Source: a bacterium HR17
GTDB taxonomy: Bacteria; Armatimonadota; Fervidibacteria; Fervidibacterales; Fervidibacteraceae
Assembly (NCBI GenBank): GCA_002898575.1
Contig: BEHT01000018.1
Span: 1-63,709, forward strand
Direction of reading: 5' to 3'
DNA: 63,709 nt
Under the pieces are notes generated by a model. The model did no database searches and was not told the origin of the DNA. It worked only from the letters and a program-made list of their open reading frames with translations. This document shows, piece by piece, positions 57,461 to 63,709 of the stretch (positions are counted from its first letter, which is position 1; every line of letters starts with the position of its first letter). The position numbers and the translations under genes are program-made.

Positions 57461-58333
57461 TCAGGTCGGCTGCCAAAGGATTTCGCCCCGAAACACCTCG
57501 GCAGCGGGGCCGGTCATCAACACGGTGCCGTCCGATTGCCAATGGATATCCAGCGTGCCGCCGGGCAAATGAACGCGGGCGCGTCGGTCTACCCGCTTGG
57601 TACGCACCGCAGCGACTAACGCCGCACAAGCGCCGGTGCCGCACGCCAGCGTTGCGCCGGCTCCGCGTTCCCAGACACGCACCCGCAACTCATGAGGGGA
57701 GATAACTTGAACGAACTCCACATTGGTGCGTTGAGGGAAAGCGGGATGGTGTTCAATGAGAGGACCGACCCGCTCTATGGGGATCGTGGCTACATCGTCC
57801 ACAAAGACGACGCAATGCGGGTTGCCCATAGACACGACCGTCACTGTGAGGGTGCCGACTTCGTCCACAGGCAAAGGCACTTCCACCGCTTCGTTGCCGT
57901 TGCCCAGCGTCGTCGGGACGCGGGCAGGGTCAAAAATCGGGGCGCCCATATCCACTGACACCGCGACAGCGCGTCCGTTGTCAGTGTGCACTTGCACCGT
58001 TTTAACGCCAGCTTTCGTCGCCACGCGCACCCATCGGTCTTTGGCGTAGTCGCGGTCATAAAACCACTTGGCGGCGCAGCGGATGCCGTTCCCACACATT
58101 TCCGCTTCACTACCGTCAGGGTTGAAGATGCGCATTTGAAAGTCGGCGAGCGTCGTCGGTAGAACCCAAATCACACCATCGGCACCGATCCCGAAATGAC
58201 GGTCACAGGCAAAGCGCGCAAACGCCGCCAACCGGTCTTCCGAAAGGGGCAACCCGTCTAACGCCCCGATGACCACAAAGTCGTTCCCCAACCCGTGCAT
58301 TTTAGTGAAAGTTAGCGCGACCGCTTCGTCCAT
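57461..58333 (-). CDS. dapF: Diaminopimelate epimerase
   Basis: 290 residues from ATG 58333; GTG 58342 is nearly as likely. It converts LL- to meso-diaminopimelate for lysine and peptidoglycan. The two catalytic cysteines are in AEMCGNGIRCAAKW and LACGTGACAALVAA; also FTKMHGLGNDFVVI, RHFGIGADGVIWV, VSMGNPHCVVFVD and RTNVEFVQV. It lies 12 bases after hfq. Confidence 0.97.
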   Translation of the reverse strand: MDEAVALTFTKMHGLGNDFVVIGALDGLPLSEDRLAAFARFACDRHFGIGADGVIWVLPTTLADFQMRIFNPDGSEAEMCGNGIRCAAKWFYDRDYAKDRWVRVATKAGVKTVQVHTDNGRAVAVSVDMGAPIFDPARVPTTLGNGNEAVEVPLPVDEVGTLTVTVVSMGNPHCVVFVDDVATIPIERVGPLIEHHPAFPQRTNVEFVQVISPHELRVRVWERGAGATLACGTGACAALVAAVRTKRVDRRARVHLPGGTLDIHWQSDGTVLMTGPAAEVFRGEILWQPT

Positions 58334-58345
58334 CTGCCTCACCGC

Positions 58346-58699
58346 CTATTGCTCTAAAGTGCCCGCCGGCTCCTTTGCTGTCGCGCGGCGGGGGCGCTTG
58401 AGGCGTTGGGCATGGGCTTGTTGCTTGGCTTGCTCGGCTTGCTGCGCTTCCGCAATCAACCGCCCAATCACATCGCCCACCGGACGCAACGGGTCAACAT
58501 ACAAGATGCCGTGCTTGAAAATCAACACCTGTTTGTTGGTGCCTTCCAGTTCCAAAGCGATGGTGTAAGTGTCAAAGCCGCGCACGATGCCGCGCAGCTG
58601 CATACCCGTGAAAAAATGCACCGCAATCGGGACGCGTTCACGACGCAGAAAATTCAGGTAGCCGTCTTGGACCTTGACTTTTGGCTCCTTGTTGTTCAC
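58346..58699 (-). CDS. hfq: RNA chaperone Hfq
   Basis: 117 residues; GTG 58699 follows AAGGAGGG. The Sm core aligns with proteobacterial Hfq: QDGYLNFLRRERVPIAVHFFTGMQLRGIVRGFD (Sm1, with Gln, Leu, Asp equivalents) and VLIFKHGILYVDP (Sm2, K-H in place). A 40-residue basic Ala/Gln tail (AQQAEQAKQQAHAQRLKRPRR) follows. The location downstream of miaA is the classic order. Hfq guides small-RNA pairing and forms a hexamer. Confidence 0.9.
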   Translation of the reverse strand: MNNKEPKVKVQDGYLNFLRRERVPIAVHFFTGMQLRGIVRGFDTYTIALELEGTNKQVLIFKHGILYVDPLRPVGDVIGRLIAEAQQAEQAKQQAHAQRLKRPRRATAKEPAGTLEQ

Positions 58700-58845
58700 T
58701 GCCCTGCCCTCCTTATCCGTTGTATGTTGTCCATCTCCGAGCAGCCCAATACCTGTAACCGCTCCCAGCCGCTTAGACGGTCACCGCTATGCACAGTTGG
58801 GGAAAAGCACGCGCTTAATTGTAGCGTGCGATAGGCTGTCGCGAT

Positions 58846-59793
58846 TCAGCGCAATAAGGTTAGCACAGTTTCTGCGATTTGCGCCGTTGATTTATCCGTC
58901 GTGCCCACCCAACGCACATACGGGCGCCGCTTTAGCCAATACCACTGCCGTTTGGCAAAGGCTTTGGCGCGGCGCAAGTATTCACGCTGCCCTTGCTCCA
59001 GCGTCCAATGCCCCAAGACAACTTGAACGAATTCGCGATAACCCAACGAGCGCAGCGATTTCAACGCCGGCGAATAGCCCTGTTCCAACAGCCACTGAAT
59101 TTCGTCTAACCAACCTTGCGCCAACAAACGGTGCATGCGGTGTTCAAGACGCTGCCACAAATGCAGGCGGTCGCAAATCAACCCGATGACGCGGGCGTCG
59201 GGGTAACGGTGCAGCCGGGGCGATTGCCACGCGTCGGACCAAAACGCGGAAATAGGTTTGCCTGTTATTTCAAAGACCTCTAGCGCCCGCACCAACCGCA
59301 CAAGGTCGTGCGGGTGAATGCGCTGAGCGGCGACAGGGTCAATGGCTCGCAAGCGCCGGTGCAGCGCTGCAGCGCCTTCCGATTCCGCCCACTTTAGCAA
59401 CCGCTGGCGCACTTCGGGGTTCGGCGGAGCAAGGGGCAAATCCAACCCTTCCAGTAACGCCGAGAGGTAAAGGGTCGTGCCACCGACGACCAACACGGGC
59501 TTGCCCCGCCGCCAGATGTCGGCGATGGCTTTTTCTGCGTCAACGACATACTGGGCGACATTGTAAGGTTCATCGGGGTCAACGACATCCAACAAGTGAT
59601 GGGGCACTTTCGCCCGCTGCTCGGGTGTCGGTTTGGCGGAACCGATGTCCAAGTAGCGATAAACTGCGACGCTGTCGCACGAGACGATTTCGGCGCCCGT
59701 CCGCTCGGCGACTTGCAGCGCCACATCGGTTTTGCCGACCGCAGTCGGACCCGTGATAACCCATAGCGGCGGGTGGCTGCTGTTCAGCGTCAT
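58846..59793 (-). CDS. miaA: tRNA dimethylallyltransferase
   Basis: 315 residues from ATG 59793, with AAGGTG upstream; the frame extends further but without support. It adds an isopentenyl group to A37 of tRNAs that read UNN codons. P-loop ITGPTAVGKTDVA, CDSVAVYRYLDIGSAKPT, PHHLLDVVDPDEPYNVAQYV, LVVGGTTLYLSALLEGL, RALEVFEITGKPIS and AKRQWYWLKR are conserved. Followed by hfq and dapF on the same strand. Confidence 0.95.
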   Translation of the reverse strand: MTLNSSHPPLWVITGPTAVGKTDVALQVAERTGAEIVSCDSVAVYRYLDIGSAKPTPEQRAKVPHHLLDVVDPDEPYNVAQYVVDAEKAIADIWRRGKPVLVVGGTTLYLSALLEGLDLPLAPPNPEVRQRLLKWAESEGAAALHRRLRAIDPVAAQRIHPHDLVRLVRALEVFEITGKPISAFWSDAWQSPRLHRYPDARVIGLICDRLHLWQRLEHRMHRLLAQGWLDEIQWLLEQGYSPALKSLRSLGYREFVQVVLGHWTLEQGQREYLRRAKAFAKRQWYWLKRRPYVRWVGTTDKSTAQIAETVLTLLR

Positions 59794-59827
59794 CGCATTC
59801 ACACCTTGCCCCACTAACTGAGTGAAA

Positions 59828-59860
59828 ATTTTTGCGTCAAACTTGTTGTGACGCAAAAAT
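59828..59860. promoter_or_regulatory. Perfect 12-bp inverted repeat upstream of selenoprotein gene
   Basis: ATTTTTGCGTCA (59828-59839) and TGACGCAAAAAT (59849-59860) are exact inverses with a 9-base spacer. It lies between the divergent miaA and selenoprotein genes, 27 bases before the start codon of the latter. It could be a dimeric repressor operator or an mRNA leader hairpin. Confidence 0.6.
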
Positions 59861-59886
59861 GCCCCCGTTAGGGAGGTGACTGGCTG

Positions 59887-60453
59887 ATGAAGCGATGGCT
59901 CTGGAGTGGCGTGGCGCTGGCGGCGTTCGGGCTGGCGCTGTTCGCCCAGCAAGGACAGGCGCCGGACACGGGGCTGAAGGTCGGCGACCCCGTGCCTGCT
60001 TACAACCCCATGCATGTCGCCGGTCCTGATAAGGGCACGAACACCTGCCCTGTCTGAAAGTATGGGATGACGCCTCAGGTCCAGATTTTGGTGCATCTGG
60101 ACCCTGAGGACAACGCCGCCAGTCTGGCGGTGAAGTTGCAAGACCTCATCCGCAAGGTCCGCCAAGGTGGGGCGAAAGCCTACGGGTTCGTTATCTGGAC
60201 GGACCCCAACGCCAAAGACAAAATCGCCAAACTCGCCGAGGACAAAAAGATTGAGGATATCGCCCTCTGTTACCTGCCCGACAAGCAGCGCGACAACTAC
60301 CTGAGGCTCCTCAAAATTGAGCCGTCAGAGAAACTGCGCAATGTTATCTTTGTCTACCGTAACAAGCGCCTGACGCACAAGTTCGTCAACTTGGATGCCA
60401 AGGACTTCGCGAAAGTCGAAGAGGCAATGAAAGCCGTTATCAGCGCCCAATAG
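59887..60453 (+). CDS. Candidate selenoprotein: secreted thioredoxin-like protein with CxxU motif
   Basis: 188 codons if the in-frame TGA at 60055-60057 is read as selenocysteine (residue 57). ATG 59887 has GGGAGGTG upstream. Residues 1-21 look like a signal peptide (KRWLWSGVALAAFGLALFAQ). The active region is T-C-P-V-TGA-K-Y-G, matching a thioredoxin-type C-x-x-C with the second Cys replaced by the stop codon. Reading continues without break through VQILVHLDPEDN, AKAYGFVIWTDPN, IEDIALCYLPDKQ and LRNVIFVYRNKR, a plausible thioredoxin-like alternation of strands and helices. The downstream half alone has no start with a ribosome site (ATG 60067 only). A SECIS-like hairpin at 60073-60109 follows. 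Alternatives are a nonsense mutation or base error of TGC/TGT to TGA. Selenium genes cannot be checked here. Confidence 0.82.
60073..60109 (+). promoter_or_regulatory. Candidate bacterial SECIS hairpin
   Basis: CCTCAGGTCCAGAT (60073-60086) pairs with ATCTGGACCCTGAGG (60095-60109), 14 base pairs with one bulged C, around the 8-base loop TTTGGTGC. It begins 15 bases after the TGA, inside the coding region, and the loop starts 29 bases after it. Bacterial SECIS elements occupy this position, and a G/GU in the loop contacts SelB. Confidence 0.78.
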
Positions 60454-60474
60454 CCGAAGACCACAAAACGCTAT

Positions 60475-60509
60475 ACTGTAGGGGCACAGCACCGCTGTGC
60501 CCCTACAGT
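60475..60509. terminator. Perfect 16-bp hairpin after selenoprotein gene
   Basis: ACTGTAGGGGCACAGC and GCTGTGCCCCTACAGT are exact inverses with a 3-base loop. It lies 21 bases after the stop codon, so may terminate transcription or protect mRNA, although no real T-tract follows. Its GTAGGGGC opening recalls the hairpin at 14447. Confidence 0.5.
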
Positions 60510-60589
60510 GCTTTCAAGTTTTGCCCTCCCCCTCTTCTGTTTTAAGGTCGTTCGTTGTCCAGTTTTCCGCGTCTCCGTCTCTAGCAACC

Positions 60590-62220: not shown

Positions 62221-63709
62221 TCATTTTCGCTTCGCATATGCACGCACCCAATCAACATACATGTAGATTGGGCTTTGGAGTTTGTCAATTGGCCAACCTC
62301 CTCCGAGCGCCAAGTTGAGCAAAATCATGAGCGGCTTGTTGTGCTCTGGTGGTGTTTTCACTCTCCAAACTTCAACCCCATCAAAATACATGACAATCCA
62401 TTCAGGTGTGACCAAGCAGCCGTAATTGTGAAAGTCTTCGGACACCTCATTTTCTCGGGTTGTTATCACTGTCCCGACAGCCCTGTGAGGCTTTGATTCC
62501 CAAACATGAACTACGCTGCTGTAAGCGTTCGGGAAGCCTTAGTATTCAATGACATCAACCTCCACTGAACCATCCTTGCCTGCATTTGGGTTTGTCCTGT
62601 CGTAACTTGAAACGAGCCAGAATGCCGGCCAGACACCAACTCCACTCGGGAACTTTGCTCTCATCTCAAAGTAGCCATACTGCAAGGAAAAGCCGTTTCC
62701 CTTTGGGTCATTTGAGCATAGCAAGCCAGACCGCCAAGGTCTCTTCCATGGGTCAGTTTTCGCAAACTCTTCGTCTTTTCCCGCCTTAATCCATAGCATC
62801 CCGTCCTTGACAGTCAATGGCAAATCGGGTGTTGGATCAGCAAAAGCGGCGTCACCAAAATTAACATGCCAAGGCGTGTGGGCAATCTATCTCGTTCCCG
62901 ATCCCCAAGGTAGGACATCCAAAGGTTCTTCAAACCCCTCGTTGAAAACCAACTCGTATCCAGTAAGGTCAAGGGTGCGTTTGCCTTGATTATCTGGTGG
63001 CGCAGCCAGCGATCTTGAGTCAACAACCAACATTCCTACGCGATACCTAAACTCTTTCTCCTCCGCTACGCCTTTGCCAGCCTTCAGTTTCAATCTCCCC
63101 TCCTTGTTGTAAAGCCCAACGACGATTCTGTAAGAGCCGTCGGTAAGTTCTTTGGGAACGATGAATTTCATTTCGTAACTTATCTTGCCCTTCCACTGCG
63201 GGAGGTTCGTCTGCATCAACGGTGGTTCGTGGTCTCCTTGCATGCTTATCCTGTCTTTATCATCAAAGAAATGGACGAAAAATTGTGTAAGCATCTTGAA
63301 GGGGACCTTCCGCTTCCCGCATTGAACTTCACTTTGAAAGCACTGCGACACTGACGCAAAAGTTCCAACCCCAGTAGTTGGCAAAATTTGCATCTTTGAT
63401 GCGAAAGGTGTGTTTATGCCAACCTGGTTCTTTGGGAACCGTCCACCAATCGTCAATATAGCGGTTGATGACCGAGAAGTTGAGTGAGGGCTTGAACGGC
63501 GCGAAAGGAAGGTCGTTTTGACCAATCCTGACGAATTACCCCATTCTCTCACATAGTCACGCCAATAGCGGATGTCTTTGATGGGGAAAGCACGCGTTGA
63601 AGGCGGTTTTGCAGATGCCCAAGGTGCAAGGTAAAGGAAGATGCCGAGAATTTGCAGGTTGCCGGATTTTGCTGACTTGACAATGTTGTCGGAAAGTGAG
63701 AAATCCCAT
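62221..63709 (-). pseudogene. Multidomain glycosidase with GH16 domain, disrupted (5' end outside window)
   Basis: On the minus strand the frame enters from the right edge (VLSDNIVKSAKSGNLQILGI-like text reading WDFSLSDNIVK, then PIKDIRYWRDYVREWG, resembling a clan-A barrel). It then shifts frame near 63535 (to NFSVINRYIDDWWTVPKEPG), and again about 63340-63300, before a beta-sandwich with QFFVHFFDDKDRISMQ and SYEMKFIVPKELTDGSYRIV. A GH16 domain follows, from LTGYELVFNEGFEEP. In that domain codons at 62887-62889 (TAG, where Trp is expected) and 62539-62541 (TAA, where Tyr is expected) are stops in the same frame. The catalytic E-V-D-V-I-E (about 62545-62562) is still intact. It ends WVRAYAKRK at 62221. 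This would have degraded beta-glucans such as laminarin. Confidence 0.8.

Follow-up and report, generated by a model that had tools for sequence, protein, structure and literature searches.

The gene at positions 59887-60453 of the window, by which we mean the whole stretch of 63,709 nucleotides analyzed here, raises the question of whether its in-frame TGA (60055-60057) terminates translation or is read as selenocysteine (Sec). We put the probability that Sec is inserted at codon 57 at about 95%, a reading for which the decoding machinery of the genome, Sec/Cys exchange among relatives, purifying selection downstream of the TGA, RNA covariation and the predicted fold provide support at the level of sequence. 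SelB carrying Sec-tRNA-Sec would be recruited by a hairpin located just 3' of the TGA, and selenocysteine would be inserted at position 57 instead of termination.

Gene layout and flanking elements

All elements of the gene described below lie on the plus strand. The start codon is the ATG at 59887, which has a strong ribosome-binding site in front of it (GGAGGTGA, 59872-59879, read from the sequence, 7 nt upstream of the ATG), and the gene would encode 188 residues, with Sec at codon 57 and TAG as the stop codon. The segment at 59887-59946 (MKRWLWSGVALAAFGLALFA) is a probable signal peptide, as judged by eye from its basic start and hydrophobic core, and the N-terminus comprising this region is of low confidence in the AlphaFold model. 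Cys54 (TGC, 60046-60048), which is conserved to at least 90% in the family alignment A1, opens the C-P-V-U motif, while the TGA is assigned as codon 57 from the sequence and from homologues that carry TGA or Cys at this place, except for two distant ones.

The first-pass annotation had placed an in-frame TGA at the second cysteine of a C-x-x-C motif, which was borne out by the C-P-V-TGA reading. It had also counted 132 codons after the TGA. The frame is indeed open, but that count includes the stop; 131 sense codons precede the TAG at 60451-60453. Standard ORF calling yields a 56-residue peptide and a 128-residue ORF starting at 60067, in agreement with the short peptide and headless protein that had been predicted. 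We rejected the ATG at 60067 as an internal start of translation, since it is not conserved and reads ACA in L015, which together with L016 is one of the two nearest relatives (family f1) of the window gene (L001).

A strong hairpin located 20 nt 3' of the stop codon (60474-60510, 17 bp, -36.8 kcal/mol, z -7.7) marks the probable end of the transcription unit as judged from its fold energy, and it is probably a terminator, one without a good T-run; stem-loops were also seen by eye 3' of the stop in L015 and L016. Between the gene and the divergent miaA lies an inverted repeat (TTTTTGCGTCA...TGACGCAAAAA, 59829-59859). When searched as genomic repeats, this element and the downstream hairpin each proved to be unique in the source genome. 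The inverted repeat contains GCGTCAAACT, a candidate promoter or operator that precedes the gene in L015 and L016 as well, and the motif TTGCGTCAAACT at 59832-59843, partly common to the two relatives, is likewise a possible promoter or operator element. On the minus strand, positions 57461-59800 read to us like dapF, an Hfq-like protein gene and miaA in a row, a presumed assignment; pairing of hfq with miaA is known in other bacteria. Pieces resembling a GH16-type glycosidase are present in separate ORFs at 62221-62823 (minus strand), near the contig end, and possibly represent a broken gene.

Decoding of the TGA

The source assembly (3.15 Mb, 96% complete) contains SelB (409 bits, cut-off 242), SelA (581 bits), SelD (385 bits), together with a canonical tRNA-Sec (78 bits) whose anticodon is TCA, so that the search for selA, selB, selC and selD proposed in the first-pass annotation found all four. 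The selD gene has an in-frame TGA of its own at the known position, PKGG-U-ACKIG, followed by the hairpin GGUCC-GGC-GGACC. A second gene besides the window gene therefore very probably uses Sec decoding. Both genes have a hairpin after the in-frame TGA; however, SelD is a known enzyme of Sec synthesis and its hairpin loop carries GG, whereas the window loop does not have a G at its start. A search of the source genome for a selenocysteine formate dehydrogenase gave only sub-threshold matches, which had no TGA.

Relatives of the protein were found in 58 of the 201 genomes around the window's organism, and a profile search detected them in about a third (103/291) of the Armatimonadota genomes. 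A search of a wider collection of genome contigs with the single protein returned no relatives, but a small alignment used as the query found them. The named records come from Armatimonadota (including SKYB58 and SKYB36), Planctomycetota, Eremiobacterota and Bacteroidota; the CxxU family extends beyond the type of bacterium considered in the first-pass annotation.

Position 57 is TGA in 18 distinct loci (L001, L015, L016, L023, L031, L044, L049, L056, L057, L058, L060, L098, L099, L105, L106, L161, L163 and L164), and it always falls on the motif's second residue. Other members read in detail nearly all have Cys, the residue that the first-pass annotation had proposed to look for in homologues; these readings were taken without L111 and L158, and the exceptions, L061 (SxxS) and L063 (CxxR), are both distant. 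The TGA is kept in one same-genus and one same-family genome, both from separate assemblies. When the Sec/Cys label was mapped on a tree of 76 members, six changes were counted without regard to direction, at least four of which are forced by well-supported branches.

Within the 58 relative-bearing genomes, which were paired across searches by hand, SelB scored above the cut-off in all 11 genomes bearing a TGA form, compared with 24 of the 47 that have Cys forms only (Fisher p = 0.0018). A tRNA-Sec was detected at the threshold used in 10 of the 11 TGA-bearing genomes; in the remaining one (G020, 85% complete) none was detected at this threshold.

For the region 3' of the TGA, NG86 estimates among L001, L015 and L016 put dN at 0.22-0.33, and dS either exceeded 2.7 or was saturated; YN00 gave 0.29-0.39 versus 0.86-1.14 where computable for the same region and genes. 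With dN this much lower than dS, selection acts at the protein level on the part after the TGA, and together with the TGA kept in relatives this led us to reject a pseudogene. A decaying gene, in which the TGA would be a true stop due to nonsense mutation or to an error in sequencing, is hardly credible, because the formally interrupted frame is set against a TGA shared with other assemblies of the same genus and family, its constant coincidence, in 18 loci from several phyla, with a codon conserved as Cys, the low downstream dN and the presence of SelB in every TGA-bearing genome tested.

The TGA might instead be subject to generic read-through or be reassigned to Trp, Gly or Cys. In some bacteria, UGA is known to be read as Cys by special tRNAs, and the source genome encodes a tRNA-Cys (L008:1501-1591) that is unusually long, has a long variable arm and scores above the threshold of the tRNA-Sec model (55.9 bits). 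Its anticodon is GCA, however, and not UCA, and the Sec set of the genome is complete, its tRNA-Sec being canonical. Among the window ORFs of at least 250 codons, TGA is the commonest stop (32/43, counted from a mechanical list of which some entries may not be genes), and the L015 copy of the gene itself terminates with TGA, which makes a genome-wide reassignment unlikely; a genome-wide code change was rejected on the grounds that TGA is the main stop codon of these long ORFs. With a structured RNA following the TGA in addition, we regard read-through or reassignment as very improbable.

The RNA in question is a hairpin at 60073-60109 (CCTCAGGTCCAGAT / TTTGGTGC / ATCTGGACCCTGAGG), a putative SECIS element identified by folding and covariation, with 14 pairs, one bulged C and an 8-nt loop that begins 29 nt after the TGA. 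Its energy is -23.0 kcal/mol. The bacterial SECIS model prescribes a stem of 4-16 bp, a loop of 3-9 nt located 16-37 nt from the TGA and an energy of at most -7.5 kcal/mol (PMC13188914), and the window hairpin agrees with the model in stem, loop size, spacing and energy. Neither of the first two positions of the loop (UUUGGUGC) in the minimum-energy fold is a G, a departure from the apical-G rule; the hairpin also fails the uninterrupted-hairpin test, and the loop of the L015 hairpin is without any G. The apical G is a sub-rule of the consensus model and no condition for selenoprotein membership, and some of the predicted elements do not conform to the bacterial SECIS model (PMC13188914). The SECIS-like hairpin of the first-pass annotation is therefore upheld in its distance and by covariation, but not in the apical-G sub-rule.

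Compared with synonymous recodings, the window gene folds at z -3.6, and none of the 200 recodings folds as well. Across the family, the 54 nt after codon 57 have a mean z of -1.80 in 16 Sec forms versus -0.25 in 103 Cys forms (p = 1.7e-5, an optimistic value because related sequences are not independent). Hairpins satisfying the strict bSECIS rules were found in 7/16 Sec forms versus 1/103 Cys forms, and by these measures a clear hairpin is missing in several Sec forms, e.g. L049 and L058.

In the three family-f1 genes, 95% of the hairpin pairs are kept, and three pairs have both partners altered in two relatives, whereas slid controls showed no such changes; this covariation comes from three sequences only, and 43 of 500 shuffles reach the same level. 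Two of the both-side changes replace amino acids in the 3' arm (Pro to Ser and Glu to Gly). Other Sec forms have hairpins of their own. L023, L044, L098 and L161, which originate from Armatimonadota, Planctomycetota and an unclassified bacterium, have the hairpin GACCUGC-GGU-GCAGGUC in common, and the Eremiobacterota-type L099, L105 and L106 have in common GACCUG-CGUGC/U-CAGGUC. All seven pairs of the recurring hairpin were found in none of the 35 alignable Cys forms.

Predicted fold and redox site

The AlphaFold2 model (mean pLDDT 91.7) confidently assigns the protein to the peroxiredoxin/TlpA-type thioredoxin fold. The best PDB matches in Foldseek are BCP/PrxQ peroxiredoxins (E 4e-8), and Sco and TlpA-type proteins were also recovered. 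In the model, C54-P-V-U57 is placed at a short helix (55-59) ahead of the core strand 64-69, while D-P-E-D-N, with no Cys at 70-74, lies between this strand and helix 74-93. In peroxiredoxins and thioredoxins, a Cys is found between that strand and the following long helix. This order of elements suggests, from the predicted secondary structure, that the redox site is displaced from the canonical thioredoxin place. The thioredoxin-like character stated in the first-pass annotation is thus retained for the fold, with the CxxU apparently outside the canonical active-site position.

Following export via the signal peptide, the mature protein would present Cys54-Pro-Val-Sec57 on the short helix ahead of the first core strand. 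Sec57 would most likely attack a disulfide or a peroxide outside the cytoplasm, Cys54 would resolve the intermediate as a selenenylsulfide, and a partner thiol protein would then reduce it. We infer the export, the redox chemistry, the attacking residue and the substrate, and fold and motif make a redox role of the selenol/thiol pair on a disulfide or peroxide a good deal more probable than its absence. No conserved partner gene or substrate-indicating neighbour was found across Armatimonadota families in a neighbourhood search. Among the Bacteroidota Cys forms (L111-L162, CPVCKYG), neighbouring genes are common across about 40 loci; by eye, they encode a membrane protein resembling a sensor kinase and a dioxygenase-like protein, which could hint at function.

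Alternatively, the protein may be a selenoprotein whose CxxU/CxxC motif binds a metal, as in Sco-like copper or haem handling, or transfers electrons. We regard this as unlikely but worth keeping in mind, given that the structural matches include Sco proteins and that the motif seemingly lies outside the usual thioredoxin active site. The nearest folds, however, are peroxidases, no metal-handling neighbour genes stood out, and where Trx-fold proteins contain Sec, it usually serves in redox chemistry (PMC13188914).

Extending the displaced-site reading to the family, we lean towards the view that, in at least three phyla (Armatimonadota, Planctomycetota and Eremiobacterota), the canonical site was lost and a new Cys-x-x-Sec/Cys site arose elsewhere on the fold, while Sec and Cys replaced each other repeatedly and the hairpins came to differ from lineage to lineage.

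Relation to known families

No Pfam or NCBIfam model, including Redoxin, AhpC-TSA and TlpA, matched the window protein significantly, and for the 50 aligned members these collections yielded no more than marginal matches here and there, with Redoxin and AhpC-TSA each matching two of the 50 (best E 0.004 and 0.01, respectively). A sequence search of solved structures returned nothing significant. PrxQ/BCP and TlpA/redoxin proteins have the same fold and topology as predicted here, and Bcp1 and the yeast nuclear thiol peroxidase reach TM-scores of 0.62-0.65 over the query and 0.73-0.80 over the targets. The window protein differs from them in having no significant Pfam/NCBIfam family match and in lacking the Cys that in those enzymes follows the core strand; its predicted redox pair precedes that strand.

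SelW/SelT/SelH (Rdx, PF10262) and Sep15/SelM resemble the window protein in their thioredoxin-like fold and in having Sec second in Cys-x(-x)-Sec, but the window protein is longer, is predicted to be exported and has another topology. PF10262 did not match it and is absent from the 25 families listed for the 50 members; PF08806 (Sep15_SelM) is marginal in 2/50 members (E 0.07). The CxxU motif also occurs in the bacterial selenoproteins Trx7/PDZ (NF041199), Prx-SUH (NF045827) and AhpD-like (NF041047/NF041238), and none of these four models matches any of the 50 members at E 0.1.

Table 1 of the 2026 inventory of prokaryotic selenoproteins, the fullest one located, has no matching entry, the comparison being made by name and cited models (PMC13188914). 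Given that neither a Pfam/NCBIfam model nor an inventory entry corresponds to it, and in comparison with the open-access journal literature, the sequences define a new family of bacterial Trx-fold CxxU selenoproteins. As for the proposals of the first-pass annotation, the unannotated selenoprotein is supported by the machinery, the Cys at position 57 of homologues and the TGA in two relatives, and the CxxU family is indeed absent from catalogues and models but is not confined to such bacteria.

As the 2026 inventory, NCBIfam and Pfam all miss the family, annotation is apt to split its TGA forms into a fragment and a headless protein. If the relocated CxxU is true, a second redox site was invented on the thioredoxin fold. 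The findings further show that hot-spring-type Armatimonadota probably use Sec in more than the synthesis enzyme SelD. The family also offers a natural Sec/Cys series of one exported (predicted) protein in which to ask what selenium buys.
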